From: Methanococcus maripaludis C5
GTDB lineage: Archaea > AGJL01 > Methanococci > Methanococcales > Methanococcaceae
Direction: 5' to 3'
NCBI RefSeq assembly: GCF_000016125.1
Contig: NC_009135.1
Span: forward strand, 62,001-126,000
DNA: 64,000 bases
Shown here: positions 13,631 through 29,678 of the stretch, piece after piece
Position numbering within the stretch: the first letter of the stretch is position 1
Layout: every line of letters starts with the position of its first letter
Program-made: the position numbers and the translations under genes
The notes under the pieces: model-generated
What the model was told of the DNA's origin: nothing
What the model saw: the letters and a program-made list of their open reading frames with translations, nothing else
The model's database searches: none

Positions 13631-15331
13631 ATGGACATGTTGGACATGGCTTTGAATATTGCCAAGGACATCGAGAAAAGTGTTAAACCTTTAATCGGAT
13701 GGGAAAAATCTAACGAAGTCGTCAAAATCGGGGCAGATGGCACCCCGACAAAGAGAATTGATTTAATCGCAGAAAACGTTGCTATAAATTCGATAGAAAA
13801 GGTTTGCTCGGCAATTTTAATAAGCGAAGAAATAGGATTTAAAAAAATAGGCAAAAATAAGCCAGAATACGTCATAGTTTTAGATCCTGTTGACGGGACC
13901 TACAATTCATTGAAGGACATTCCTTTTTATTCTGCAGCAATTGCAATCGGGCGAATTGATAAATTTACAGATAATTTTGAAGAAATGATAAAAAATCTCA
14001 AAATGAGCGACCTCGAAGTAGGTGTAGTTCGAAACATCGCAACAGGGGATACATATTACGCTAAAAAGGGAAATGGTGCATATCTTTTAAAGAAAGACGA
14101 GAAAAAATCGATTTCAATTTCAAATTCTTCCAATTTAAAAGATTCTTCAATAGGTCTTTTTGCACATGATATTTCATTAGATACTCTTAAATTTATAAAA
14201 GATAGGAGATTTAGGAGAATCAGGCTTTTTGGATCGATTGCTCTTGAGATGTGTTATGTTGCAAAGGGTGCACTCGATGCATTTATTAATGTAAATGAAA
14301 CCACTAGGCTTTGCGATATTGCAGCAGGATACGTTATTATTAAAGAAGCGGGGGGACTTGTAACTGATAAAAACGGTCAGGAAGTAAATCTTGATCTCGA
14401 CGTCAATTCAAAAGTTTCAGTTATTTGTTCAAATGAAATGCTCCATAAAAAGCTTGTAGGAATTTTTGGAAACCGCTGGAGAATTAAACCAACTAACTTT
14501 GGAATAATCTCAAGAATTGATAACGAAGAATCTATCGCAGTTGCACAAGATGTCATAAAATATTTGGATTTAAAAGGGATCAAATACGAGCTTGATAGTG
14601 GTACCTATAATGCATTAAAGAATCGTTTATCTAAAGAATGTAATGTAATCTCAAATATTGAAGAGATATCCCACATGATATCCATCGGAGGGGATGGAAC
14701 AGTACTTCGGGCATCAAAAATGATTGAAGGAAATGAAATTCCAATAGTTTGTATAAACATGGGAACCGTTGGATTTTTAACTGAATTTAGCAAAGATGAA
14801 ATCTTTTCTGCGATAGATTCTATAATTTGTGGATGCTACAAAGTCGAGAAAAGAACAAAACTAATGGGTTTTGCAAAGCTTTCTGACGGTAGACAGCAAA
14901 TTTTAAATGATTCTTTAAATGAGGTAGTGATTACAACTAAAAATCCTGCAAAAATGCTTCATTTTGAAGTATACATCGATGGAAATCTTGTAGAAGATGT
15001 GAGGGCTGACGGAATAATTGTTTCAACTCCAAATGGCTCTACAGCATATTCTTTAAGTTCTGGTGGTCCAATAATTGAACCAACAGTCGAAGGATTTGTG
15101 ATTGTCCCAATATGTCCGTTTAAACTCTCATCACGACCGTTAGTTGTAAATGCAAATTCAGAAATAAAAATAAAACTTTTGAAAAAATCCACATATGTTG
15201 TAATTGATGGAAACACGGAATTTGAAGCAAAAAAAGGCGACGAGATAATTTTAAGAAAATCTGAGTCAAATGCATATTTTGTGAAAGGAGATAATTTCTA
15301 TAATAAATTGAAAAAATTAAGTTTAATGTAA
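13631..15331 (+). CDS. Bifunctional NADP phosphatase/NAD kinase
   Basis: 566 residues made of two fused enzymes, like MJ0917. The N-terminal inositol monophosphatase-type domain (about 1-255) has EEIGF and the metal motif DPVDGT at 85-90, and removes phosphate from NADP+. The C-terminal NAD kinase domain (about 275-566) has IGGDGTVLR and NGSTAYSLSSGGP. The opposing activities in one chain would set the NAD/NADP balance in the cytoplasm. The ATG follows GGTGAAAAA. Both catalytic motifs are intact. Confidence 0.94.
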   Translation: MDMLDMALNIAKDIEKSVKPLIGWEKSNEVVKIGADGTPTKRIDLIAENVAINSIEKVCSAILISEEIGFKKIGKNKPEYVIVLDPVDGTYNSLKDIPFYSAAIAIGRIDKFTDNFEEMIKNLKMSDLEVGVVRNIATGDTYYAKKGNGAYLLKKDEKKSISISNSSNLKDSSIGLFAHDISLDTLKFIKDRRFRRIRLFGSIALEMCYVAKGALDAFINVNETTRLCDIAAGYVIIKEAGGLVTDKNGQEVNLDLDVNSKVSVICSNEMLHKKLVGIFGNRWRIKPTNFGIISRIDNEESIAVAQDVIKYLDLKGIKYELDSGTYNALKNRLSKECNVISNIEEISHMISIGGDGTVLRASKMIEGNEIPIVCINMGTVGFLTEFSKDEIFSAIDSIICGCYKVEKRTKLMGFAKLSDGRQQILNDSLNEVVITTKNPAKMLHFEVYIDGNLVEDVRADGIIVSTPNGSTAYSLSSGGPIIEPTVEGFVIVPICPFKLSSRPLVVNANSEIKIKLLKKSTYVVIDGNTEFEAKKGDEIILRKSESNAYFVKGDNFYNKLKKLSLM

Positions 15332-15347
15332 TTTTTCGTTCTTTTTT

Positions 15348-15506
15348 TCATTTTTTTCTAAAAACTAGGTTATTTAGAAAGTATTTCATCTTAAATGCTA
15401 AAATTATTAGAATTAATAATGCGATAATTAGGTAAACTAAATCCAATGTAATATCCAATATATCCTTAAATAGCGCATTTATTAAATTACTGGCTAATTC
15501 ATCCAT
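15348..15506 (-). CDS. Small membrane protein of 52 residues downstream of tldD
   Basis: A short gene missed by length cut-offs. The ATG at 15506 lies 12 bp after the tldD stop, preceded by CGTGA. The product has an acidic N-terminal part (MDELASNLINALFKDILDI), one strongly hydrophobic helix (about 22-38) and a basic tail ending FRKK, which predicts a single-span protein with its tail in the cytoplasm. The T-run near the stop could end transcription. No family is recognised. Probably co-transcribed with tldD. Confidence 0.6.
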   Translation of the reverse strand: MDELASNLINALFKDILDITLDLVYLIIALLILIILAFKMKYFLNNLVFRKK

Positions 15507-15518
15507 ATTTTCACGAGT

Positions 15519-16895
15519 TTATGAAAGTGTAGTTTTTGTTCTAACACTTCCTCCACCGTCCCCTACTGGAACACTTTGACCCCCTTTTCCACAGTATCCA
15601 ACGCTTAATTCAAATTCATCAGACACTGCATCGATATGGTGTAAAATATCTAAAATTTCGCCACTAAGTCCTGCATCCCTTAGTGGTTTAGTTAATATTC
15701 CATCTTCAATTAAAAATGCTTCAACAGCGTTAAACTGGAATAATCCTTTTCCAGTATCTACCTGTCCACCTCTTGAACCTTTCAAAAATATTCCTGTTTT
15801 TGTATCTTCTAAAAGTTCTTCAAATTTCCAGGAACCTGGCTTAATGTACGTGTTACTCATTCTAACAATTGGCCTATTCAGCCCATCTGCTCTAGCATTT
15901 CCTGTAACATCCATGTTAAGTCTTCCAGCAGTTTCTCTTGAATGTAAGTATCCATTTAATATACCATTTTCAATTAATGTAGTTTTTTCTCCTTTAACTC
16001 CTTCGTGGTCGTATTTATATTGTCCAAATGATTTTTCAATTGTGGCATCATCAATTACGGTTACTTCTTCGCTACCCACAGAATTCCCTAGTTTATCGTG
16101 AAAGACACTGTCATTTTGCAAAAAAAGGTCTGCTTCAGCAGCGTGGCCCACAGCTTCGTGAATGAATACCCCTGCAAGTTCTGGATCCAATATAACATCA
16201 AAAGTTCCTTTTGGACAGCTTTCAGCAGTTAAAAGTCTTATTGCTCTTTCTTTTGTACTTTTAGCCATTTCTTCAATTTTCGCATTTTTAATTATTTCAA
16301 ATCCGTTTCCGCCGATTCTATCAAATGCAAACTGCAAAGTTCCATCTTTTGCAATAGCAGTCATTCTCATAAGAGCTTTAACACTTTCATTTTCTATTCT
16401 AGTTCCTTCACTGGTCATTAAAATAGAATGGCCTTCCCCATCACTGTAACTTACGGAAGTACTAACTATTTTTTCTCCAGACATGTTTTCATGCGCTGAT
16501 TTCAAATATTCCTTTTTTTCTTCGATCGAAATTGTTTCAGGATGAATTTTTACATCCGCTTTCACATTATCACAAATTACAGGAATATCTTTCAATTCTA
16601 TCGATTTTTTAGTGTGTGTATTTGATATTTTTGCCATATTATGTGCTTTTTTTATTATTTCTTCAATATTTTTCAAAGAAACATTATTTGAGGTTGCAAA
16701 ACCCCAGCCGTTTTTTTCAAGCACCCGTATAATCACGCCAGAAGACATTCCAGAAGAAATTTCATCGATTATTCCATCTTTTTGGATAATATTGTTTGAT
16801 TCACCGGAAACAATTCTTAAATCTGCGTAAGTCCCAATTTCAAGTAATTTTTCAAGTTTTTCAATGTTTAAGTCAAGTTCGTTTAAAAAACTCAC
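15519..16895 (-). CDS. tldD: TldD family metalloprotease
   Basis: 458 residues, full length for TldD. The zinc motif HEAVGHAAEADLF (an HExxxH type) is near residue 245, followed by a conserved glycine-rich end with SVPVGDGGGSVRT. In bacteria TldD works with TldE/PmbA in a heterodimeric peptidase that matures peptides; the partner is not in this window. The start is a GTG at 16895 after GGTGAAATT. The 52-residue membrane gene follows directly. The native substrate in methanogens is unknown. Confidence 0.92.
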   Translation of the reverse strand: MSFLNELDLNIEKLEKLLEIGTYADLRIVSGESNNIIQKDGIIDEISSGMSSGVIIRVLEKNGWGFATSNNVSLKNIEEIIKKAHNMAKISNTHTKKSIELKDIPVICDNVKADVKIHPETISIEEKKEYLKSAHENMSGEKIVSTSVSYSDGEGHSILMTSEGTRIENESVKALMRMTAIAKDGTLQFAFDRIGGNGFEIIKNAKIEEMAKSTKERAIRLLTAESCPKGTFDVILDPELAGVFIHEAVGHAAEADLFLQNDSVFHDKLGNSVGSEEVTVIDDATIEKSFGQYKYDHEGVKGEKTTLIENGILNGYLHSRETAGRLNMDVTGNARADGLNRPIVRMSNTYIKPGSWKFEELLEDTKTGIFLKGSRGGQVDTGKGLFQFNAVEAFLIEDGILTKPLRDAGLSGEILDILHHIDAVSDEFELSVGYCGKGGQSVPVGDGGGSVRTKTTLS

Positions 16896-16939
16896 AATTT
16901 CACCAGTTTAATAATGACACAAATCTGCTTTTCTTTTAA

Positions 16940-18337
16940 TTAAATGTTATGAATTACAATTGTTTTTGTCTCGCACATTTCTTCTACGGTATATTTTATG
17001 CCTTCTCTTCCAAGACCACTTTTTTTAACTCCTCCAAAAGGCATATTGTCTTTTCTAAATGTGGGGCTGCTGTTTATCATTATTCCGCCGTATTCTAATG
17101 AATCTGCTATTTTCATAGCTTTATTTATATCATTTGTGAATACTCCTGCTTGAAGCCCATATTTTGAATTATTTGCAATAGATACTGCTTCTTCGCTATC
17201 CTTTACTTTTAATATTGGTAAAACCGGTCCGAAAGTTTCAATTTTTGATAAAATATTATTTTCATCAATATTGATGACAGCCGGAGAAATCAAGCTGTTC
17301 TGCCTATTTCCGCCAATCAATACTTCTCCACCTTCATTTACGGATTTTTTTATTAAATTTTCAATTCTTAAGGCACTTTCAGGACTAATGAGTGGGCCGA
17401 TATCTGTTTTAGTATCGAGCGGATTTCCCAAAATTAGTTTTTTAGTTTCTTCGATAACGTGTTTTGTAAATGTTTCTAAAACTTCTTCTTCAACGAGCAC
17501 CTGTCCAACTGAGATACAAACCTGCCCCGCATTTAAGAATTTACTTTTAACCGCGGATTTGGCAGCTAATTTGATGTCAGAATCTTTTAACACTATCATA
17601 GGGTTATTTCCCCCAAGTTCAAGTGCAACTTTTTTCATTTTCGCATTTTTTGATATCGATTCTCCAACTTCAACGCTTCCAGTGAACGAAACCATATTTA
17701 TATTGTCGTTTTTCGAGATTTCATCGCCAACAATATCTCCATTTCCGGTAGCAAGGTTAAATATTCCTCTTGGAACATCCATCTGTTTTAGAACATGTTC
17801 TATAATTTTTGTAAGATATATTGCAACAATCGGTGCTTTTGATGATGGATGTAATACAACTGAATTTCCTGTGGCAATTGCAGGGCCAATTTTATGTGTT
17901 ATCAAATTTAATGGAAAATTAAATGGAGTTATTGCTCCAACTACGCCCAACGGCTCTTTTTTTGTAAATATTAATCCATTTTCCGAATTAATTGTTTCTC
18001 CACGAAGTTCCTTTGCATAGAATGCAGAAAGCTTAAGTGCAGTCAATGTTCTATCTACTTCTATTTTTGACTGTTTTATTGGTTTTCCAACGTCAATTGA
18101 AATTGTTTTTGCAAAAAGATCTTTTTTCAAGCTGATCTGCTCTGCAATCTTCATTAAAATACTGTATCTTTTTGAAGGGCTTAAATTTTTCATTATTTCT
18201 TTATTTTTTTCCGCAACTTCAATCGCACTTTTTGTTTCTTCTCTATCAAGGGCAGTTATTTTCTCGATATTTTCCAACGTGTACGGGTCAAAAACATCGA
18301 TATCTTCTCTTAAAATCCATTTTCCATCGATAAACAT
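16940..18337 (-). CDS. cofA: NAD(P)-dependent aldehyde dehydrogenase (lactaldehyde dehydrogenase CofA or GAPN-like)
   Basis: 465 residues of the aldehyde dehydrogenase superfamily. The catalytic cysteine is in FLNAGQVCISVGQ and the general base Glu in ALELGGNNP; the cofactor segment is FTGSVEVGESI. The M. jannaschii homologue MJ1411 oxidises lactaldehyde to lactate for coenzyme F420. The M. maripaludis orthologue has also been discussed as non-phosphorylating glyceraldehyde-3-phosphate dehydrogenase. Sequence alone does not separate the two uses. It starts after CAGGTGTAAC and lies 44 bp before tldD on the same strand. Confidence 0.85.
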   Translation of the reverse strand: MFIDGKWILREDIDVFDPYTLENIEKITALDREETKSAIEVAEKNKEIMKNLSPSKRYSILMKIAEQISLKKDLFAKTISIDVGKPIKQSKIEVDRTLTALKLSAFYAKELRGETINSENGLIFTKKEPLGVVGAITPFNFPLNLITHKIGPAIATGNSVVLHPSSKAPIVAIYLTKIIEHVLKQMDVPRGIFNLATGNGDIVGDEISKNDNINMVSFTGSVEVGESISKNAKMKKVALELGGNNPMIVLKDSDIKLAAKSAVKSKFLNAGQVCISVGQVLVEEEVLETFTKHVIEETKKLILGNPLDTKTDIGPLISPESALRIENLIKKSVNEGGEVLIGGNRQNSLISPAVINIDENNILSKIETFGPVLPILKVKDSEEAVSIANNSKYGLQAGVFTNDINKAMKIADSLEYGGIMINSSPTFRKDNMPFGGVKKSGLGREGIKYTVEEMCETKTIVIHNI

Positions 18338-18455
18338 AAAGTTACACCTGCAATTTCATTGAATAATATTAACGTGTAATGGGTTATAAATTTTAGTAAA
18401 AATTAATATATTCAAAAATCCATAATTATGAGTATTAATATCGGGGGAGATACAA

Positions 18456-19259
18456 ATGCCGATTTCACTAATGGGTTACACACTATCAATAAATGTGTTT
18501 TTAATTGTTAAGGCTATTTTAGTACTTGTTCTAGGGTATTTGGCAGTAAGGATTGTGTCAGGCATTTTAGAAAGAGGCGCTAAAAAAAGTAAGATTCCAG
18601 AACTGGTTTCTGAATTTGTTATCAAGCTATTTAGTGCAATACTTTATTTATTTGTGATATTGCTCGCAGTAGGTGTTTTTGGTGTTGAAACAGGGCCAAT
18701 AATTTTGGGACTTTCTGCATCACTCGGTTTAATTTTAGGTTTTGGTCTTCAAGACACACTTACAAATCTAACATCTGGCCTTTGGATTGCGGTTATGAAG
18801 CCACTAGACAAAGAAGAAACTGTTCAAATCGGTGGAATGACTGGAAAAGTAGTTGAAGTTGGGATAATGGCAACTAAACTTTTAACTCCCGACAATGTGG
18901 TTATTACACTCCCAAATAAGTTAGTTTGGGGAAGTCCTATAACTAATTTCACTAGAATGGATATAAGAAGAGTAGATGTTGCAGTTGGAGTTAGCTACGG
19001 CGAAAATTTAGACAATGCAGTATCTACAGCACTCGAACTTATTTCTGGACATCCTTTAGTATTAAAAGACCCTGCACCAGCAGTAGCCATAACTGGTCTT
19101 GGTGATTCTTCTGTAGATTTACAGCTTAGGGCATGGACGAAAACTGGCGACTACTGGGCTGTAAAAGGAGATCTTACAAAAGGAATCTACGAAAAATATG
19201 GAAAAGAGGGTATTGAAATTCCGTTCCCACAGATGGATGTACATATCCACAAATATTAA
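18456..19259 (+). CDS. mscS: Small-conductance mechanosensitive channel, MscS family
   Basis: 267 residues, close to E. coli MscS in size. There are three predicted membrane helices: about 10-32, 48-70, and the pore-lining Gly/Ala-rich helix at about 78-110 (LGLSASLGLILGFGLQDT). The cytoplasmic beta domain begins near MKPLDKEETVQIGG and ends in an alpha/beta part near residue 260. The channel opens under membrane tension and releases solutes after osmotic downshock. The ATG follows GGGGGAGAT. It is divergent from the aldehyde dehydrogenase gene. Confidence 0.92.
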   Translation: MPISLMGYTLSINVFLIVKAILVLVLGYLAVRIVSGILERGAKKSKIPELVSEFVIKLFSAILYLFVILLAVGVFGVETGPIILGLSASLGLILGFGLQDTLTNLTSGLWIAVMKPLDKEETVQIGGMTGKVVEVGIMATKLLTPDNVVITLPNKLVWGSPITNFTRMDIRRVDVAVGVSYGENLDNAVSTALELISGHPLVLKDPAPAVAITGLGDSSVDLQLRAWTKTGDYWAVKGDLTKGIYEKYGKEGIEIPFPQMDVHIHKY

Positions 19260-19283
19260 AAAATAAGTTTTTATTTCTTTTTT

Positions 19284-19769
19284 TTATTTTATATGGCCGA
19301 TAATGTGCCCAGTTTCTGTTTTAATAATATCAAGTGCGGTTTTGCAGGCATTAATCGATCCAGGGATAGAATATATGATTTTTTCCTTGTAAATTCCAGC
19401 AGATGCTCTTGAAAGTATTGTTGAGTATTTTACTTCACCGTAGCTTAAGTTATGGAATATTATTTTAAATCCGTCAAGTTCTTTTTCATAAATTTCCTTT
19501 ACAACGTCAGCAGTAACGTCTCTTTTGGAAAGTCCCGTTCCACCGGTGATTACAATGGAATCAACATCTGTAAACTCAACGATATGTTCAATTAACCCAT
19601 TTAACATCAGCTCATTATCTGGAATTAAATGGTATATTTTTGCATCCAATTCTTCCCTTAAAAAATCCCCTGATTTATCGGTTATTTCAGTTCCCGCAAT
19701 TTTTTCGTTAAATCTACTATCGCTTACTGTAATTACAGCATATTTTATTTCAGAAATTCGTTCATGCAT
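19284..19769 (-). CDS. moaB: Molybdenum cofactor biosynthesis protein MoaB/MogA family
   Basis: 161 residues. It binds molybdopterin and adenylates it before insertion of molybdenum or tungsten, needed for formate and formylmethanofuran dehydrogenases. Conserved segments are AVITVSDSRF near the N-terminus, VITGGTGLSKRDVT near residue 75 and IIYSIPGSINACKTAL near residue 130. The ATG at 19769 sits two bases after the cbiO stop, with AAAGGGGGA upstream, so it is translationally linked to cbiO. Confidence 0.93.
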   Translation of the reverse strand: MHERISEIKYAVITVSDSRFNEKIAGTEITDKSGDFLREELDAKIYHLIPDNELMLNGLIEHIVEFTDVDSIVITGGTGLSKRDVTADVVKEIYEKELDGFKIIFHNLSYGEVKYSTILSRASAGIYKEKIIYSIPGSINACKTALDIIKTETGHIIGHIK

Positions 19770-19771
19770 GT

Positions 19772-20608
19772 TTAGTCCCCCTTTATAAACTCTTTAATGT
19801 TATTTCTCGCTTCTCCGATGGTATAACCCATTTTTATTCCAAGTTTATCTTCTTTTTCCAAAAGTTCTATTAAATGTGCAACTCTTGGTAACCTTAAATT
19901 TGCACTTCTAACGGTTTCAGAGTCACTGAAGATTTCCCTTGGAGTTCCACCTTTGATAATTTTTCCCTCATTTAGTAAATAAACTTTATTTGCATATATT
20001 GGAACTAAATCTACGTCGTGAGTGGATATAATTATGGTTATTCCTTTTTTATTTAAGTCGTAAAGTAACTTCATGATCTGTGATGCACCCATTGGGTCAA
20101 GGCCTGAAGTTGGTTCATCAAGAACAATAATTTCCGGGTTCATTGCTAAAATTCCCGCAATGGCGATTCTTTTTTTCTGGCCCCCACTTAAATGATGTGG
20201 AGGTTTTCTCTCAAACCCTTCCATCGATACCGCTTTTAACGAATCTTTTACTCGTTTTTCAATTTCTTCTTTCGAAAGTCCAAGATTCATCGGTCCAAAT
20301 GCAACATCCTGTTCAACAGTTGGTGCAAAAAGCTGGTCATCGGGGTTTTGAAATACGATTCCAACAGTTTTTCTGACATTTAAAAGCGATTTGTTATCAT
20401 ATTTTATTGGATCGTCTTTTAAAATTACGCTACCGCTACTCGGTTTTAAAATTCCGTTAAAATGGAGAAAAGTAGTGGATTTTCCAGCACCATTTGGGCC
20501 TAAAATTGCTATCATTTCGCCTTCTTCAGCTTTAAAATTAATTCCATTAAGTGCGACAGTTCCGTCAGGATAAGAATACTTTAAATCTCTTGTTTCCAAA
20601 ATCGCCAT
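19772..20608 (-). CDS. cbiO: Cobalt/nickel ECF transporter ATPase CbiO (intact copy)
   Basis: 278 residues. It is the ATP-binding subunit that energises the CbiMNQO uptake system at the inner face of the membrane. Walker A GPNGAGKST, Q-loop VFQNPDDQLFAPTV, signature LSGGQKKR, Walker B IIVLDEPTSGLDP and the switch His (STHDVD) are all intact. The ATG follows AGGTGATTTA. It is separated from cbiMNQ by about 1.6 kb containing decayed cbiQ and cbiO copies and a plus-strand gene, so it must use its own promoter. It is followed by moaB. Confidence 0.95.
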   Translation of the reverse strand: MAILETRDLKYSYPDGTVALNGINFKAEEGEMIAILGPNGAGKSTTFLHFNGILKPSSGSVILKDDPIKYDNKSLLNVRKTVGIVFQNPDDQLFAPTVEQDVAFGPMNLGLSKEEIEKRVKDSLKAVSMEGFERKPPHHLSGGQKKRIAIAGILAMNPEIIVLDEPTSGLDPMGASQIMKLLYDLNKKGITIIISTHDVDLVPIYANKVYLLNEGKIIKGGTPREIFSDSETVRSANLRLPRVAHLIELLEKEDKLGIKMGYTIGEARNNIKEFIKGD

Positions 20609-20642
20609 TAAATCACCTTAGAGGATTATATTCTTAAAAGTA

Positions 20643-20864
20643 TAAAAAACTTAAAATTTGAAATCACGGTTTTAAAATATCTTAATATAATTTAGGGGTA
20701 TCGATAATAATCAAATATTCCTCTAAAAATAACTATATAATCCTTATATCTGTAATTAAAAGAAGTACGATGAGAATTTTGAAAAAAAAACGCTGTAATT
20801 TTAGTCCAATATTGATTAAGTTAAATTTGAACGCAAGGTTAATTTTATAACTCCCTACGTCCAT
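20643..20864 (-). pseudogene. cbiQ: Decayed second copy of cbiQ with internal deletion
   Basis: This stretch just upstream of intact cbiO aligns in two blocks to the intact cbiQ gene. Bases about 20643-20720 match the cbiQ 3' end and its downstream gap (about 22200-22285); shared strings include TTAATATAATTTA and ATTTGAAAT. Bases about 20699-20795 match inside the cbiQ 5' part (about 22799-22905), for example AAAAATAACTA and AAGTACGA/AGGTACGA. The middle of the gene is gone, and the join lies at a shared GATAATAAT-like string. No open frame remains. Hand alignment only, roughly three quarters identical. Confidence 0.7.
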
Positions 20865-20885
20865 AATTTTTTTAGGTGATAACTT

Positions 20886-22001
20886 ATGAAAAGTAAAATT
20901 TCTATATTTTTGGTTTTGCTTTCTTTAGTCTTGCTTCAGCAGGGTTTTGCTGCAAGCAATATTGATTTAGGTTCTTATTCTGGAGGTGAAACCGTTTCTA
21001 TATCTGAAGCTGGAGATTACGAAATCAGCGGAAGTTTAATTGGCGGAGGAATTGTTGTTAATTGTGAAGGTAGTGCTGTTAATTTAATTTTGAACGGAGT
21101 AACTATTTCTTCTGTCGACACAGCTTGTATTTATGGTGAGGATTTAGAAACTTTGACAATAACGTTACTCGAAGGAACTACTTCAAATTTAGGAAATGAC
21201 GGTGAAACAGATTATGACGGAGTTATTTACAGTAATTCTGACATAATTGTTGAAGGTGAAGGTAAATTAATTGTTGAAGGAAATGCTGAAGAAGGAATTT
21301 CAACTGAAGATAAAGATATAACAATTAATGGCGGAACTATTGTCATAACTGCTGTTGATGATGGAATTAACGCCGGTGGGGACAATGGTGGATTGATTTC
21401 CATCAATGGCGGTAACATTTATGTAAATGCCGAGGGCGATGGAATTGATTCTAATGGCGACCTTGAAATTAATGGCGGAACTCTTTTTGTTGTTGGAAGT
21501 ACCAGCGCTGACGATTCTGCTTTAGATAGTGACGGCACACTTGCAATCAACGGTGGAACAGTTGTCGCATTAGGCAATGGAATGTTACAATCTCCTGATT
21601 CAGATTCTTTACAAGATTTCTTGGCTGTAAACGTTGATACAATTGATGCCGGAAATATTATTGCATTGGTTGATGCTAATGGTGAAAAAATAGTTTCTTT
21701 TGCAACAACTGAAAAAAGTTTTAGCACAATCGTAATTAGCTCGGCTTTTCTGGATTCTGATAATTATAAATTATATAAGAACTGTGAAAATACAGGATCT
21801 TTAGTGAATGGAATTTACACTGGCGGAGTTTTGACATTGGGCGACGAATTAAGTGTTAGTGAATCAAGTTCAAATATGGGCGGACCCGGAAATATAGGGG
21901 AACCGAGGGAAATTCCATCTGACACAGAAAGTGAAGAAGATGAGGATGTTGGATTTTTTGAGAAAATTTTCAACTTCCTATTGGGATGGCTGTATGATTA
22001 A
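20886..22001 (+). CDS. Secreted beta-helix carbohydrate-binding protein (Cthe_2159/DUF4353-like)
   Basis: 371 residues. A signal peptide (about 1-22, ending GFAA) is followed by a right-handed beta-helix-like body with recurring INGGT steps (about 130-240) and aspartate-rich turns such as DDGINAGGDNGG and DGIDSNGD, which suggest calcium binding. This matches the DUF4353 family, whose bacterial member Cthe_2159 binds polysaccharides. The tail is acidic (SDTESEEDEDVG), ending in an amphipathic FFEKIFNFLLGWLYD. It lies opposite to, and between, decayed cbiQ and cbiO copies. Possibly acquired from bacteria; this was not tested. Confidence 0.75.
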   Translation: MKSKISIFLVLLSLVLLQQGFAASNIDLGSYSGGETVSISEAGDYEISGSLIGGGIVVNCEGSAVNLILNGVTISSVDTACIYGEDLETLTITLLEGTTSNLGNDGETDYDGVIYSNSDIIVEGEGKLIVEGNAEEGISTEDKDITINGGTIVITAVDDGINAGGDNGGLISINGGNIYVNAEGDGIDSNGDLEINGGTLFVVGSTSADDSALDSDGTLAINGGTVVALGNGMLQSPDSDSLQDFLAVNVDTIDAGNIIALVDANGEKIVSFATTEKSFSTIVISSAFLDSDNYKLYKNCENTGSLVNGIYTGGVLTLGDELSVSESSSNMGGPGNIGEPREIPSDTESEEDEDVGFFEKIFNFLLGWLYD

Positions 22002-22055
22002 CATATTTTGAGTCTAAATTACAATAACCAATATTTGGACTCAAAACCTCCTATT

Positions 22056-22190
22056 TTATTTTAGAAATTCTTTTAAAATTTTTTCTTGTTTAATAAATTG
22101 TAATCAATTTTTCCAAATTCATCTTCTTTTTTTAAAAGATCTATCAAATATGCAAATTTTGGAATCCTAAAATCATTGCACAATAAACCG
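22056..22190 (-). pseudogene. cbiO: C-terminal remnant of a second cbiO
   Basis: On the minus strand, directly after cbiQ, about 40 codons translate to NDFRIPKFAYLIDLLKKEDE and, after a frameshift, KILKEFLK before a stop. The intact CbiO ends with ANLRLPRVAHLIELLEKEDK and NNIKEFIKGD, so the match is clear. All ATPase motifs are missing. The remnant begins where a cbiO start would be expected after cbiQ, so nearly all of the gene has been deleted internally. Confidence 0.78.
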
Positions 22191-22240
22191 CCCTAAAGTA
22201 TATTTAAAACGTAAAAAAAGTTAAATTTGAAATTGCAGCT

Positions 22241-23014
22241 TTAATATATTTTAATATAATTTAAAGATAACAATAATAATTCAAAAATGCCAATGAGTAC
22301 AACAGAATTAGTTTTAGGGTAGGAAATATCTCCAAAAAACATTAAATTTCCATCGTACCCTCTTGAATTGAGTGAATTATATATTACATCACCCTTATCA
22401 AGTGCTTTTATGAACAAACTGCCTGCTAATAATCCAAGAGAGTGGTAGGACGTTTTAAGATTTTTATAGCCTAGTCTTGTTTTTTGAGAGTTTTCAATTG
22501 ATAAAGTTTCATCCATAAGCATGAATATGTAGCGGTACATCATCATTGCAATTTCAAGCATGTTTTTTGGCATTTTAGACTTTTTCAAGATGCAGAACAG
22601 TTCAGTAAATGGGGTTGTAAGTGCTAAAAATAGTGTACAGGATACTCCCCCGAGCATTTTAAAAAATGTTAAAAGTCCAAGACTAAATCCGTCTTTTAGT
22701 AAATTGAGTGTAATTCCGAAAAAATCAAATGACATGTAGATTTCGGTTCCGAACAAAAAAGTCATCATTACAAAAGTAATAATTCCGAAAATAAATGGTA
22801 TCGATAATAATTTCAAATAAACAGTTTTTGGTACTTTTGCAGCAAAAATAACTACAAAACTCATTATAAATGCAATTAAAAAAGGTACGACGAAAGTTTT
22901 GGAAAAAAGGCTGACGAGCAGTGATGAGACTGCAAAAATAACCTTTAATGTAGGATTAACTGACCTTAAACTGTTACAATTTGCAATACTGTCAATCAAA
23001 TAACTGTTCGTCAT
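22241..23014 (-). CDS. cbiQ: Cobalt/nickel ECF transporter transmembrane subunit CbiQ
   Basis: 257 residues with about five or six membrane helices. It is the coupling protein that links the CbiO ATPases to substrate-binding CbiM. The coupling-helix region contains MPKNMLEIAMMMYRYIF and SLNSRGYDGN, where CbiQ family proteins carry their Ala-Arg-Gly-type motifs. The ATG follows GGTTAAAAT. It comes 14 bp after cbiN. Its immediate downstream partner is only a cbiO remnant; the working ATPase gene is about 1.6 kb further on. Confidence 0.9.
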   Translation of the reverse strand: MTNSYLIDSIANCNSLRSVNPTLKVIFAVSSLLVSLFSKTFVVPFLIAFIMSFVVIFAAKVPKTVYLKLLSIPFIFGIITFVMMTFLFGTEIYMSFDFFGITLNLLKDGFSLGLLTFFKMLGGVSCTLFLALTTPFTELFCILKKSKMPKNMLEIAMMMYRYIFMLMDETLSIENSQKTRLGYKNLKTSYHSLGLLAGSLFIKALDKGDVIYNSLNSRGYDGNLMFFGDISYPKTNSVVLIGIFELLLLSLNYIKIY

Positions 23015-23027
23015 ATTTTAACCAATT

Positions 23028-23321
23028 TTAGTTTTTATCTTCATATTTAGCTTTGTTGTATCCAAAGAAGTATCCTATGATTATAGCACCTATTGCAGCT
23101 TGAAGCGCAAATAAGAGACTTTCAATTTCCCCACTTGGAGGTTCCCAGAATGGTTCAAACCAAGGTTCGTAATTTGGGCTGATTTCCATGATCAAGTCTC
23201 CAGCAGCACCATCTGCACCACCGAAGTATCCTTCATCTTCACCAAGGCCTGAGTACATGATCAAAGGTGCTAATATAAGGATTATAACTCCGAGAATCAT
23301 TAAAACATGTTTAAATTCCAT
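23028..23321 (-). CDS. cbiN: Cobalt transport protein CbiN
   Basis: 97 residues with two membrane helices (about 8-25 and 67-87) and an acidic extracellular loop between them (GEDEGYFGGADGAAGDLIMEI). CbiN is the small accessory subunit that allows CbiM to load metal. Its start overlaps the cbiM stop (TAATG), so it is translationally coupled. Its presence favours Co2+ over Ni2+ as substrate, although nickel systems can also have a similar subunit. Confidence 0.92.
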   Translation of the reverse strand: MEFKHVLMILGVIILILAPLIMYSGLGEDEGYFGGADGAAGDLIMEISPNYEPWFEPFWEPPSGEIESLLFALQAAIGAIIIGYFFGYNKAKYEDKN

Positions 23322-23998
23322 TATTCAGCACCCCCTTCAGCTTTTGCAGGGTCAATAAGACCAAGTTTTGCAAGGAGATCTGGTCTTAATTTCATGATGT
23401 AATCCCAGATAAGTCCTGTTAAAAGACCTTCCATAATTGCAAGTGGAATCTGTGTCACTGCAAATACGGTTCCAAAGTTTGAAAGCGCTGTTCCAAAATC
23501 TGGTAATGGGTATGCTAAAGCGAGCTGGATTGATGTTGTAGCGTATGTTCCCCAGTCTGCAAATATTGCAGCGAGTACAACAACCCATGTGATATTTAAT
23601 TTTCCTTTTAACAATTTAAACACTAAAAAACCAATTGCTGGTCCCATGATACCCATTGAGAATATATTTGCTCCCAATGTGGTTAATCCACCGTGTGCAA
23701 GTAAGATTGCCTGGAACAATAATACAATTGTCGCAAGTACTGCTGTAATTGCTGGACCAAACATAACTGCGCCAAGTCCACCACCTGTCGGGTGTGAACA
23801 GCTTCCCGTTACTGAAGGAAGTTTTAGCGAACTTAATATAAACATGAACGCTCCTGCGAGGGCTAATGTGGGTTTAACTTCAGGTTTGTCGTTAATTAAT
23901 TTATTTAATTGGATTATTCCGTATATAACGATGATGCCAGATAGCACAAACCAGAATGCAGCCCACATCGGAGGTAGAAAACCTTCCATAATGTGCAC
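23321..23998 (-). CDS. cbiM: Cobalt ECF transporter substrate-binding protein CbiM
   Basis: 225 residues with about six or seven membrane helices. The N-terminus MHIMEGFLPP is diagnostic: in the family the free amino group and His2 bind the metal, so translation must start here. A further conserved segment is GSCSHPTGGGLG near residue 66. It supplies cobalt for corrinoids, including the Mtr methyltransferase cofactor. First gene of a cbiM-cbiN-cbiQ operon with a leader of about 100 nt that contains an inverted repeat. Confidence 0.95.
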   Translation of the reverse strand: MHIMEGFLPPMWAAFWFVLSGIIVIYGIIQLNKLINDKPEVKPTLALAGAFMFILSSLKLPSVTGSCSHPTGGGLGAVMFGPAITAVLATIVLLFQAILLAHGGLTTLGANIFSMGIMGPAIGFLVFKLLKGKLNITWVVVLAAIFADWGTYATTSIQLALAYPLPDFGTALSNFGTVFAVTQIPLAIMEGLLTGLIWDYIMKLRPDLLAKLGLIDPAKAEGGAE

Positions 23999-24072
23999 TT
24001 TATCACCTATTAAAGATAAGTTAATTTATATTACAGTTACTTTTAATCTGGGATGTTATATATTGATTTCGA

Positions 24073-24096
24073 TTTAGTCTAGCCTACTTTACTAAA
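24073..24096 (-). promoter_or_regulatory. Inverted repeat in the cbiM leader (possible operator)
   Basis: TTTAGT-N12-ACTAAA lies about 75 bp before cbiM. It is just downstream of where transcription would start from the TATA-like TTTATATA at 24135-24128. It could be a metal-responsive repressor site. No cobalamin-riboswitch-like structure was recognised here. Confidence 0.3.
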
Positions 24097-24127
24097 TGAA
24101 ACTTATCTTGAATAGTGTCGTTGAAAG

Positions 24128-24136
24128 TATATAAAT
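24128..24136 (-). promoter_or_regulatory. Box A (TATA) of cbiMNQ
   Basis: Minus-strand ATTTATATAC is the only clear box A between hacA and cbiM. It would start transcription near 24105. Confidence 0.4.
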
Positions 24137-24193
24137 CTAATTTCAAAAAAGAGAAAAAACAGTCATTATTACTTTTTTTAATAATTTCATACG

Positions 24194-25450
24194 TTATTCA
24201 TTGGTAATGTATCCTTTAACTGCGGATTTTGCAGCTATTGCAGGAGATGAGAGGTAAACTTCCGATTTTGTGTTTCCCATTCTTCCTTTAAAGTTCCTAT
24301 TGGTTGTAGCAAGACATACTTCCCCATCACCTAAAACACCCTGATGGGCTCCAAGGCATGGTCCGCATCCAGGAGTGCAGATTAATGCTCCAGAATCTAC
24401 AAAAGTATCGATTAATCCTTCTTTTAACGCTTCTTTAAAGATTGATTTTGATGCAGGAATTACAATTAGTCGGGTGCTTTCATTAACTTTTTTTCCTTTC
24501 AAATGTTTTGCAGCAATTCTTAAATCGTTTAATCTTCCGTTTGTACAAGATCCGATGAATACCTGATCTAATTCAATTCCTGATACTTCAGAAACTCCTT
24601 TTACATTGTCAGGGTGGTGCGGGCAAGCAATCTGTTCTTCCATATCGGTTATATCAAATTCAAATGTTTTGTAGTAATTTTCTTCGGATTCATTAACTTT
24701 TATTTTATTTTTTTTCAAGTTAAGAATTTCTTCTCTTGAAACTCCTGCATTTTCAAGGTATTTGTAAGTAGTATCGTCAGCTTCGATAATTCCAGCTTTT
24801 CCGCCCATTTCAATGGCCATGTTCGATAAAACCATTCTTTCGTCCATGTCAAGATTTTGGACTGCATTTCCGCCGTATTCTAAAGACAGGTATGTCGCTC
24901 CACGTCTTCCAACTTCCTTACAAGTTTTTAAGATAATGTCCTTTCCAGAAATATTTTCATTTTCTCCGGTTACATTTACTTGAATGGTTTCAGGAACTCT
25001 AAGCCATGTTTTTCCGGTTGCATAGACGTAACCCATGTCAGTTGCACCAAAACCTGTCGCAAAAGCACCGAATGCCCCATGAGTACAGGTGTGACTGTCA
25101 GCTCCTGCAATTATCATGTTTGGCTTCACGTGGCCTTTTTCAGGAAGTACCTGATGACATATTCCTTCGCCATCAAGGTAATAATTTTTAATTCCCTGTT
25201 TTTTGATAAATTCTCTCGTTATAACCTGCATATTCGCAGCTTTTGACGTGTTTGCAGGGATGTTGTGGTCAAAAATAATAACTATCTTTTCATTATCCCA
25301 AACTTTGTCTGAAATCTGCTCAAAAGCTTTTACTGTAAGAGGGGTAGTCCCGTCATGCGTCATTGCGACATCCACGTCTATTTCAACGCTATCGCCCGCG
25401 TAAACATTTTTTCCAACATTTTTAGAAATGATTTTTTCAGCAAGTGTCAT
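24194..25450 (-). CDS. hacA: Homoaconitase/isopropylmalate isomerase large subunit (HacA)
   Basis: 418 residues of the aconitase superfamily. Three [4Fe-4S] cysteines are visible, one in FIGSCTNGRL (near residue 300) and two in CTPGCGPCLGAHQG (near residue 360). GADSHTCTHGAFG is near residue 116. The ending KSAVKGYITNE and the start MTLAEKI resemble MJ1003, the homoaconitase large subunit that extends 2-oxo acids toward the coenzyme B side chain. The paralogous LeuC is close in sequence, so the substrate is inferred. The small subunit is not adjacent. Confidence 0.85.
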   Translation of the reverse strand: MTLAEKIISKNVGKNVYAGDSVEIDVDVAMTHDGTTPLTVKAFEQISDKVWDNEKIVIIFDHNIPANTSKAANMQVITREFIKKQGIKNYYLDGEGICHQVLPEKGHVKPNMIIAGADSHTCTHGAFGAFATGFGATDMGYVYATGKTWLRVPETIQVNVTGENENISGKDIILKTCKEVGRRGATYLSLEYGGNAVQNLDMDERMVLSNMAIEMGGKAGIIEADDTTYKYLENAGVSREEILNLKKNKIKVNESEENYYKTFEFDITDMEEQIACPHHPDNVKGVSEVSGIELDQVFIGSCTNGRLNDLRIAAKHLKGKKVNESTRLIVIPASKSIFKEALKEGLIDTFVDSGALICTPGCGPCLGAHQGVLGDGEVCLATTNRNFKGRMGNTKSEVYLSSPAIAAKSAVKGYITNE

Positions 25451-25563
25451 CGATTCTCACCGTAAATTCGTAATATAAATAAAAACAGTACTGAATAGGT
25501 TAGGCGTTATTGATTTATAAATATAGGGGGTTTAAATTAAATTTAAAAGAGAATTATTTGAAA

Positions 25564-26496
25564 TTAATATGAGTATTCACTATCATTATTTAGTTTTTTA
25601 GGTTTTATTTCGGATAATATTTCTCCGTTTTTAAAAATCCTTATAATTCCGCCACTTTCTGAAATGGTAATTGCAAGAGCGTTTGTATATTTTGAGATAG
25701 TTGCCGCAGCATGATGCCTTGCACCAAGTCCGAGTGGAAGTTCAATATTTCCACCGCTACAGCTTATATATCGACCAGCACAGAGTACTTCTCCTTTTTC
25801 ACCGATTATAAATGCACCATCTATCGTTGATAATTCTTTAACGGTTCCCTTAACCTGTTTATCAAATATAAATGATTCATGACCCTCAAAAGGATTTAAA
25901 ATCAATTGTGAAGACATTTTTAAAACTTTTTGTGTATCCCCAATGACAAATATTGATCCAACTGGAATTCCTTCCCTACCTTCAACTGCAAGTTCCATAC
26001 AAAGGTTTAAAACTTCATTGATAACTTTTCCTTTCGTTTTTTCAATTGTGGATATGTACTCGTAATATCTGAGAATTTGCGGGTATTCATTTACTTCAAA
26101 GATAGATATAGTATCCGTTCCACCTGTAACCTTTGGAATACCTAAGATTGATACAACAACGTCTCCTTTTTTAACGATATTATTCGAAAAAAGGTTTGTT
26201 ACCGCTTGTTTTATCATTGAAGACCTGTCATCATTCCTATAAGTCATTAGAAGCGGTATAATTTTGGGTTCATTTTTTAACTTCAAAAAAGTTTCTTCAT
26301 TGGGCGTAGTTACAACTACTTTTAAACTTTTGAAGTCTTTTGATGACCTGTTTTTTCGGGCCCGTTTATAGATTGCTTCCTGATCTTTGTAATATTCGTA
26401 AGTTCGTCCGGTTTCAGTAAATATCAATAGAATATCTGCGTTAATATCTATTGCAAGATTGAAACCATGTTTTAATAAACTTTTGACTTTATCCAT
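25564..26496 (-). CDS. dacZ: Diadenylate cyclase (archaeal DacZ, DisA_N domain)
   Basis: 310 residues from ATG 26496, which follows CCGGTGCACCAG; a GTG at 26505 is less likely. It makes cyclic di-AMP from two ATP. The DisA_N catalytic motifs are in the C-terminal part: DGAFIIGEKGEVL near residue 224 and GLGARHHAAATIS near residue 252, corresponding to DGA and RHR. The N-terminal half (about 1-120) is a separate domain found in archaeal DacZ proteins. It lies 14 bp after cfbB on the same strand. Confidence 0.87.
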   Translation of the reverse strand: MDKVKSLLKHGFNLAIDINADILLIFTETGRTYEYYKDQEAIYKRARKNRSSKDFKSLKVVVTTPNEETFLKLKNEPKIIPLLMTYRNDDRSSMIKQAVTNLFSNNIVKKGDVVVSILGIPKVTGGTDTISIFEVNEYPQILRYYEYISTIEKTKGKVINEVLNLCMELAVEGREGIPVGSIFVIGDTQKVLKMSSQLILNPFEGHESFIFDKQVKGTVKELSTIDGAFIIGEKGEVLCAGRYISCSGGNIELPLGLGARHHAAATISKYTNALAITISESGGIIRIFKNGEILSEIKPKKLNNDSEYSY

Positions 26497-26510
26497 CTGG
26501 TGCACCGGTT

Positions 26511-27854
26511 TTAGGTTTTAGAAAGGTTCGCTGCAAAGTAGGGATTTCCAATGCAGTGCTGGTGAGCATAACCTCCAACGATATCGCCATCTTTTGAGGT
26601 TATTCCATCCATAGAGTTTATTATTCCTTTTCCCCTATTTATTCTATATGAAAAGTCGTTTTCATTAATATTTATTAGTTTTGAATAATGGAATTCATGT
26701 GCTTTAAATTCTTTAGATTTTTCACCGATAATGCAGTCTTTTTCAAAAGTTCCTTTAACATAACTCAGACCCTGAACATTTGGAGTCATTACTGCATCTG
26801 CATCTATTAATTTTAACATTTCCTTGCCATCGATTGAATTTGTAAGATACATGAGCCCTCCGCATTCGCCGTAAATTTTTCCATCAAAGTTTCTTATCGA
26901 GTCAATCATGGATTTATTGTTCGAAAGTTTTTCAGAAAATAGCTCTGGATAGCCCCCTCCAAGATAGATGGTATCGCAATCTGGAACTTCCACGTCATTC
27001 AATGGACTGAAAAATTTTATTTTAGCACCGTTTTCTTCTAATGCATCGAAGTTATCCCAGTAATAAAAATTAAATGATTCGTCAAATGCAACGGCAATTT
27101 TTGAATTGTTTTTTTCAACTTTCCAGAGAGTTTCTTCTTTATTTTTTTCATCAACTTCAAAGTCGAAACTTTCGTCACTCAATTCAACTATTTTTTCAAT
27201 ATCTAAACATTCTTCAACAGTGTTTCCCCATAAATCTATTCTTTCAAGCAATTTCTGCTTATTTTCTGGAGTTGGAACGAGTCCAAGATGTCTTTGGGAT
27301 ACAGACAATCCATCATCTCTTGGAATTGCACCGATTATCTCGATGTCATTATCGTAATATTTTACAGCTTCTTTTAATTTATTTAGGTGTCCTTCACCCC
27401 GGATTTTATTGAAAATAACACCTTTAATATTTAATTCAGTATCAAATGATTTGAACCCTTTAATTATTGCAGCAGCACTTCTTGTAAGGCTTCTTGCATC
27501 CATCAATAAAATTACTGGAGCATTCAGGGTTTTTGAAACCGATGCGGTACTTCCAACATCGTTATAAGGTGAAATTCCCTCATATAATCCTCTCACACCT
27601 TCGATAACATTTATATCTTTATTTTTAGAATGCCTTTTAAAAATTGATCTAACTTGCATTTCATCCATAAAAAACGAATCTAAATTCCTTGATTTGTTTT
27701 TAGTGGCTTCTGTGTGATATGTTGGGTCGATATAGTCAGGTCCGATTTTATATGGTTGCACGTTATTTTTTTTAGACAGTGCTTTCATTATTCCTGTCGA
27801 TATGGTCGTTTTTCCAACCATCGAAGAAGTGCCCGCAATAACTACTCTTTTCAT
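26511..27854 (-). CDS. cfbB: Ni-sirohydrochlorin / cobyrinate a,c-diamide synthase
   Basis: 447 residues from ATG 27854 (GCGTGAAAAAC upstream). It is an ATP- and glutamine-dependent amidase of the CbiA family; in methanogens it serves coenzyme F430 synthesis and probably cobamides as well. The P-loop [10 protein letters not shown] is near residue 9, and [12 protein letters not shown] follows near residue 37. The glutaminase half has GGGYPELF and the nucleophile in [11 protein letters not shown] near residue 325, and ends with [10 protein letters not shown]. Cobalt uptake genes lie a few kb away. Confidence 0.9.
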
Positions 27855-27971
27855 GTTTTTCACGCAAATTTTAAAATTAATAATGATTCCTAAAATCTAT
27901 AAACTAATCATAAACTAAATATATTTTAAAAACATAAAAAATTTTTGATATTTTCTTGAGAGGATGAAATT

Positions 27972-28709
27972 TTGAGTTTTGAATTTTTAAAAAAACAGTT
28001 TAGCTGGTTTTTAAACCTGAACTTTACGAATAAATTTATTATAACTTATTTTTTATCTTGGACGGGTTTATTTACGACGTTATTTGTAAGTAAGCTTTTA
28101 AAACCGCTCGTAAACGTTGAATCTGCTGGAGTTTTAACAACTGTAAAATATGAAGTAATTTCAACAGCAGTATCTTCTCAAATCGGAATTAATTACTATT
28201 CGATCTGGTATTCGTATTTTATAAGCAATTCTCTTGCATGCATGACTATATTTTTAGTTTTTATATTACTTCCCTACATATATACAAGAGATATTTCAAA
28301 AGGAAAGTCAACAATTAACGATTATTTCAATGTTTTGTTGTTTTTTTACGTATTGATTATAGTAAATCCTCTAACCGGAGTTTTAGGCGCAAGTTTAAGT
28401 CTTTCAGAAATGCTTGCAATAATTCCGCATGGGCTTTTTGAATACGCGGGATTTTCAATGGCAATAGTTCTTGGAATCGAATATTCAATTTATAAATTGC
28501 CGTTGGAGGCTAAAAAAGAAGTATGGGATACAAAACAAAAACTAAAATTTTCAATGAAATTCTTTTCAATCCTTATCTTCATATTTATTGCAGGTGGCAT
28601 AGAAACTTTGGACTGGATAATATTCAACTATGCAAAAGAAAACGATTTATCAATTTTTAGGACATTTTTTGAAGTGTATTACAGCATTTTAAAGTCTTTA
28701 CTTTTTTAA
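27972..28709 (+). CDS. Polytopic membrane protein (SpoIIM-like)
   Basis: 245 residues with about five membrane helices. The segment AIIPHGLFEYAGFSMAIVLG near residue 155 resembles the PHG-containing core of the SpoIIM/DUF95 membrane family, whose function is unknown. No enzymatic motif is seen. The likely start is a TTG at 27972, six bases after GAGAGGAT; an ATG at 27964 stops after three codons. It stands alone, divergent from cfbB, and the broken lipoprotein gene follows. Confidence 0.55.
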   Translation: MSFEFLKKQFSWFLNLNFTNKFIITYFLSWTGLFTTLFVSKLLKPLVNVESAGVLTTVKYEVISTAVSSQIGINYYSIWYSYFISNSLACMTIFLVFILLPYIYTRDISKGKSTINDYFNVLLFFYVLIIVNPLTGVLGASLSLSEMLAIIPHGLFEYAGFSMAIVLGIEYSIYKLPLEAKKEVWDTKQKLKFSMKFFSILIFIFIAGGIETLDWIIFNYAKENDLSIFRTFFEVYYSILKSLLF

Positions 28710-28814
28710 TCATTTTTTAGTTTTCAAAATCAATTTGTTGTTTTAATACATTAATATATCATCAAACCCCCATCTTTGATGTATTCGCCTAAAAAAGTGA
28801 TTACGGGGGATAAT

Positions 28815-29635
28815 ATGTTTAACAAAAATTTTTTTGCATTTCAGCTCATTTTTGCACTTTTAATTGCAGTTTCGTTTTCAGGCTGTACTGATGATGCATC
28901 TGATTCAGAATAAGATTCATCTAGCGCGGTTGAAACTGAAAATTATGATTTACAAAGTTTTTCTGGTTCAAATACGAATGAAACTTCAGAAATTATGGAA
29001 TTAGTCGCAAATCGAAATGAAATATGGGGTTATTCTATTGAAACTACGCTAAGAATTATGGCAGATGATCTAAATATCGAGATGGATGGGCTTGCAAAGG
29101 TCGATATGAAAAATAAAAAGATGTACATGTCTTTAGTATCTGATGAAGAAATCACAGAATACTATGTTTTCGAAGATGCAATTTATACTAAAACTGTTGC
29201 GGATGGGGAAACCCGTGGGTTAAAATGCCATCCGATGACGAAAATTTTGAAGAAAGTGTTGGAATAATGGCCCAATACAACAAAGATATGAATGATCTTG
29301 AAAATAAGGATTATATTGTGGAAGGTGAAGAAACAGTAAATGGAATTTCATGTTATAAAATAAGAATGGATATAGATGATATTGTTAGTTTCATGGCAGA
29401 ATGCGGTATTGACGATAATTTAGTTTCAAGCTGGGAATCAGCATACGTTACTTACTATATCAGTAAATCAGACGGACATATGGTAAAATCAATAGAGGAT
29501 ATTAAAGTAACTTTTAAATCAGGAGACTTAGTTGAGTTTAACGACATATTAATCTTTAAAAATATCAATGAGGTTCAGGATATAGAACTTCCAGAAGAAG
29601 CAGAAAATGCGATTGATATGTCAAGTTTATACTAA
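28815..29635 (+). pseudogene. Broken lipoprotein gene (LolA/LppX-like)
   Basis: The ATG at 28815 follows GGGGGAT and encodes a lipoprotein signal (FALLIAVSFSGC, Cys near residue 24). The frame is stopped by TAA at 28911-28913, then stays open to about 29216. There a one-base loss is needed to continue in the next frame (ETR, then WVKMPSDDENF) to 29635. The restored protein would have about 272 residues and resembles secreted LolA-like lipoproteins with internal beta strands. Two separate lesions suggest a true pseudogene; sequencing error is not excluded. The stop is TAA, so it is not a selenocysteine codon. Confidence 0.75.
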
Positions 29636-29678
29636 CTAAAAAATACTCATAAAATCATAAAAAATTAAAAAAAGAATT

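Follow-up and report, generated by a model that had tools for sequence, protein, structure and literature searches.

The cbi locus of Methanococcus maripaludis C5

The window analysed here is a 64,000-nucleotide stretch of the 1.78-Mb chromosome of Methanococcus maripaludis C5, whose genome also includes an 8.3-kb second contig. Read along the minus strand, the locus runs cbiM-cbiN-cbiQ-spacer-(cbiO 3' remnant)-[plus-strand gene]-(cbiQ remnant)-spacer-cbiO-moaB, an order that a first-pass annotation had proposed, with its two remnants on either side of the plus-strand gene, and that Pfam searches and alignments bear out. CbiM, CbiN, CbiQ, the ABC ATPase encoded by cbiO and the MoCF_biosynth protein encoded by moaB are all found by Pfam at the expected places. 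The features are listed below by window position; copy 1 denotes the cbiQ side and copy 2 the cbiO side, and scores are those of local DNA alignments.

23321..23998, minus strand: cbiM, intact (PF01891, E = 2e-55; collinear in relatives)
23028..23321, minus strand: cbiN, intact (PF02553, E = 1.9e-30)
22241..23014, minus strand: cbiQ, intact, copy 1 (PF02361, E = 3.6e-50; 84.8-85.8% DNA identity to genomes G001 and G002)
22185..22240, minus strand: cbiQ-cbiO spacer of copy 1, decayed, with the ancestral ribosome-binding site and TATA-like box degraded (alignments)
22061..22184, minus strand: cbiO remnant, copy 1, the last sixth of the gene only (score 70, shuffle maximum 37)
22005..22046, plus strand: imperfect inverted repeat TTTTGAGTC...GACTCAAAA 3' of the inserted gene, probably its terminator (read from the sequence)
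20886..22001, plus strand: inserted gene, encoding a secreted-looking Cthe_2159-type beta-helix protein of a carbohydrate-binding family (PF14262, E = 2.7e-35)
20733..20796, minus strand: cbiQ remnant, copy 2, 5' piece, about codons 35-55 (score 47, shuffle maximum 36; E = 3.3e-8)
20672..20724, minus strand: cbiQ remnant, copy 2, 3' piece, ending at the former stop codon (within the alignment of score 86)
20609..20671, minus strand: cbiQ-cbiO spacer of copy 2, conserved, carrying TTTTTATA at -40 and AAGGTGAT ahead of the start of cbiO; closer to G001 and G002 than to copy 1
19772..20608, minus strand: cbiO, intact, copy 2 (PF00005, E = 6.9e-32; about 90% DNA identity to G001 and G002)
19284..19769, minus strand: moaB-like gene directly 3' of cbiO (PF00994, E = 6.9e-21; same position in G001-G003)

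The cbiM, cbiN and cbiQ genes are contiguous and intact (23998-22241, minus strand) and, with cbiO, all four transporter components are intact at the locus. The split CbiMNQO set is predicted from its genes to be a working cobalt/nickel transporter. A perfect TTTATATA box at 24135 on the minus strand (within 24080-24150), about 135 bp upstream of cbiM, implies a long leader. Rfam returns no riboswitch or other known RNA at the locus, cbiM leader included, at the gathering score, and no tRNA that might have served as an integration site lies within 15000-30000. A second, distant CbiQ-like gene at C1:670344-670967 adjoins a CbiM-like gene and belongs to another ECF-type metal transporter of the same genome. 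This gene is the sole other CbiQ, a distant paralogue (28% identical), and a second full cbiQ-cbiO elsewhere in the genome is accordingly rejected.

Two decayed half-copies of cbiQ-cbiO

Each proposed remnant and the spacer beside it were aligned locally, as DNA, with the proposed partner and compared with 500 dinucleotide shuffles. The cbiQ 3' end plus spacer (20609-20732) aligns with the intact cbiQ side at a score of 86 (shuffle maximum 46), while the cbiQ 5' piece (20733-20797) and, compared with the 3' end of cbiO, the cbiO remnant (about 22061-22176) reach the scores listed above. In a DNA search of the whole genome the same pairs are the best non-self matches (E = 2.8e-12, 1.2e-10 and 3.3e-8). 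Both copies of the cbiQ-cbiO segment lie in the same orientation. GC content in the gaps of this very AT-rich region is 0.24-0.25, and weak AT-rich matches are numerous across genomes, so the similarity around the inserted gene might be suspected of arising by chance, with no duplication at all. Three separate blocks in the correct order and orientation, each above every dinucleotide shuffle, and the alignment of known relatives in the same columns as the remnants make this explanation exceedingly improbable; the shuffles themselves rule it out. The alignment of remnants and spacer with their intact partners, as first annotated, is upheld, and the chance-level similarity that was to count against it is not what the alignments show.

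The two copies have lost complementary genes, copy 1 retaining cbiO and copy 2 retaining cbiQ only as fragments, as had been claimed. Of cbiQ there remain two pieces, one of early and one of the last codons, with about 550 bp deleted between them. What is left of cbiO lacks about 700 bp from the start codon on and abuts the spacer almost directly. Against intact cbiO it shows 2 synonymous and 8 non-synonymous codon changes, compared with 6 and 1-2 in relatives, and the fragment has therefore decayed without constraint. On the side of the cbiO remnant, homology ends at the cbiO end; a duplication reaching into moaB was considered and rejected, the 22-bp match having a score of 34, inside the shuffle range (maximum 36). 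No significant cbiQ similarity is found in 20797-20885, beside the plus-strand gene.

Comparison with other Methanococcus genomes, suggested at the outset, yields a single uninterrupted cbiMNQO and no second cbiQ-cbiO in six of six. In the three nearest relatives the order is cbiM-N-Q-O-moaB, with moaB directly after cbiO and a cbiQ-cbiO spacer of 62-83 bp. The cbiQ match of G003 (around 2265 of its locus) contains one in-frame TAA near its end, and the protein stops at residue 255 within the aligned stretch; the TAA is probably just an earlier stop. Among the genomes compared, the duplication and the opposite-strand gene are seen in C5 only. Because the alignments beat all shuffles and six relatives have one uninterrupted cbiMNQO, duplication of cbiQ-spacer-cbiO with complementary loss is confirmed.

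The inserted gene

The plus-strand gene scores far above the family cut-off for PF14262 and matches the sequence of PDB 4peu/4phb (E = 7.6e-15). The Cthe_2159 family members named in the scan are bacterial, whereas this one resides in a Methanococcus without a relative in its order. None of 35 other genomes of the order has a relative of the gene. The best 80 matches listed in the genome collection are all bacterial, mostly from Bacillota, at 28-46% identity, and archaeal relatives may rank below them. The gene was probably acquired horizontally. Its product has a long acidic stretch and a hydrophobic C-terminal tail (EEDEDVGFFEKIFNFLLGWLYD), which might be a membrane anchor.

The insert holds no mobile-element gene, and no convincing border repeat was found. 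An inverted similarity between its borders has a score of 29, equalled or exceeded by 0.65% of shuffles, a figure uncorrected for the choice of region. Mobile-element terminal inverted repeats were not adopted as a reading of this weak similarity, which overlaps the probable terminator. A DNA search found no other copy of the border sequence, and none of the species representatives carries the insert beside cbiO as a donor might. The gene occupies the precise junction between copy 1 and copy 2.

A probable promoter before cbiO

Despite the break in the operon, cbiO may retain a promoter of its own. A TATA-like box, TTTTTATA, precedes the start of cbiO by 40-41 bp in copy 2, G001, G002 and G003 and is broken in copy 1. 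The ribosome-binding site after it, AAGGTGAT, is likewise conserved, and degraded in copy 1, where cbiO is dead. As such a box match occurs on one strand of about 7% of random 60-mers from the window, the box alone is weak evidence, and the case for a promoter rests on the position of the box and on differential decay between the copies. On this footing the copy 2 spacer is a probable cbiO promoter and ribosome-binding site. The annotated picture of one working set split over 4 kb, with cbiO probably under a separate promoter, is supported.

Retention of the box in the living copy and three relatives, against its destruction in the dead copy, suggests that a separate cbiO promoter predates the insertion. 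Its conservation in those relatives suggests a promoter inside cbiMNQO in the M. maripaludis/M. vannielii group. If real, such a promoter would mean that splitting the operon cost little.

Relationship between the two copies

Copy 1, copy 2, G001, G002 and G003 were compared in three blocks with just 333 columns in all. Quartet site patterns for the two copies, G001 and G002 number 10 for copy 2 with G001 and copy 1 with G002, 4 for the two copies as sisters and 0 for the third split. At the 3' end of cbiQ the outgroup is readable, and there the state common to copy 2 and G001 looks derived. The best tree with sister copies is 7.5 log units worse than the best tree, a difference reached by none of 100 parametric bootstrap replicates, which rejects sister copies under a test that tends to be liberal. 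The best such tree, ((copy 1, copy 2), G001), is not rejected by the AU test (p = 0.10), and the first block, the cbiQ 5' piece, leans slightly towards sister copies (2 patterns against 0).

Across the locus between leuC and the aldehyde dehydrogenase gene (16940-25450), adjacent 300-bp stretches are G001-like or G002-like in turn, a mosaic suggestive of frequent recombination between strains of the group. Later recombination could therefore mimic a foreign copy. Naming a donor lineage by a mosaic scan of C5, G001 and G002 along the locus was abandoned, the pattern being too mixed. Since the bootstrap tends to be liberal, the locus is mosaic and the first block is mildly in favour of sisters, the evidence that the two copies are not each other's nearest relatives is suggestive. 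At that same strength, uptake of an allele from a different strain or duplication before the strains split accounts for the data better than does recent tandem duplication within the lineage.

Origin of the split operon

The absence of the inserted gene from 35 other genomes of the order and its position right at the copy junction make a link between duplication and insertion probable. The cbiQ-cbiO end of this CbiMNQO (ECF-type) cobalt/nickel transporter operon may be a partial diploid frozen in place, in which two diverged cbiQ-spacer-cbiO copies bracket an opposite-strand Cthe_2159-family gene of horizontal origin. DNA carrying this gene and the cbiQ-cbiO segment of a related Methanococcus strain would have joined the chromosome in one event, a single crossover. 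With a donor that was circular or concatenated, such a crossover leaves the insert flanked on both sides by the shared segment. An internal deletion would next have taken most of cbiO from copy 1 and another most of cbiQ from copy 2, the outcome being one working set over about 4 kb. Complementary loss would have barred removal of the insert by recombination between the copies, and cbiO, together with moaB, would have stayed expressed via the TATA box already in the spacer, which survives in copy 2 but has decayed in copy 1.

The insert is flanked by direct repeats of a homologous segment, as single-crossover integration leaves, and the relatives lack it and each have one uninterrupted copy, as such an event requires. 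M. maripaludis strain JJ is naturally competent, and natural transformation is documented in it (PMC10133366, PMC11267900). The origin of one copy in a foreign strain and the single crossover are both read back from the present arrangement, and linked duplication and insertion by this route, followed by complementary loss, is about an even proposition. The fuller reading is more tentative and somewhat short of even: a naturally fixed inter-strain merodiploid in an archaeon, in which a bacterial-type surface-protein gene would have arrived by single crossover and been locked in by complementary allele decay, the split being tolerable via a pre-existing internal promoter.

Tandem duplication had been put forward as the simplest history. 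Its two copies and complementary loss stand, and a plain origin within the lineage does not fare as well, given the gene at the junction and copies that do not seem to group. By such a history, cbiQ-cbiO would have been duplicated in tandem and reciprocally deleted, and the foreign gene would have inserted later at or near the junction. The same copy layout would result, two sites are common to the cbiQ 5' piece and intact cbiQ, and the sister-copy tree survives the AU test. The copies are not adjacent, however, as unrelated DNA (the gene at 20886-22001 and its flanks) lies at their junction; a later insertion could account for this, at the price of an independent event exactly at that point. 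The derived sites found in copy 2 and G001 but not in copy 1 would also call for several reversals or a recombinational replacement of the intact cbiQ 3' end, and the parametric bootstrap runs against sister copies. A plain tandem duplication is therefore unlikely, if far from negligible.

Non-grouping copies would also be explained, without any donor, if duplication and insert were older than the strain split, had collapsed elsewhere by recombination between direct repeats and were frozen here by complementary loss. Direct repeats of such length readily collapse in principle, but the six relatives hold no trace of a second copy or of the inserted gene, and at least two independent clean collapses would be demanded. 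An old duplication is accordingly rather improbable.

Comparison with known systems

Tandem duplication with complementary gene loss is known as duplication-random-loss and figures in the SNAP hypothesis (Brandis and Hughes 2020; PMC7055797). Compared with SNAP, the cbi case is very small (two genes) and leaves the ancestral gene order unchanged; its copies are separated by a foreign gene and do not resemble recent identical duplicates, and selection is not in evidence at the locus. Single-crossover (Campbell-type) integration giving merodiploids is used in methanogen genetics (PMC11267900) and likewise leaves direct repeats of a homologous segment flanking the inserted DNA. The cbi locus differs in being natural, with diverged and half-deleted repeats and an event reconstructed after the fact. 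All four components of the CbiMNQO ECF-type cobalt transporter operon are similar to those of relatives, yet cbiO lies 1.6 kb away from cbiMNQ with an opposite-strand gene between.

The type of event is already known (PMC7055797), and the locus is a small, well-preserved genome scar with no new system or function. Its value is as a readable case of a foreign gene becoming fixed in an archaeal operon. Insertion-linked duplication would supply spare copies, complementary loss would stop the insert from recombining out, and an internal promoter would keep the downstream genes on. The internal cbiO promoter in Methanococcus is a prediction for testing.
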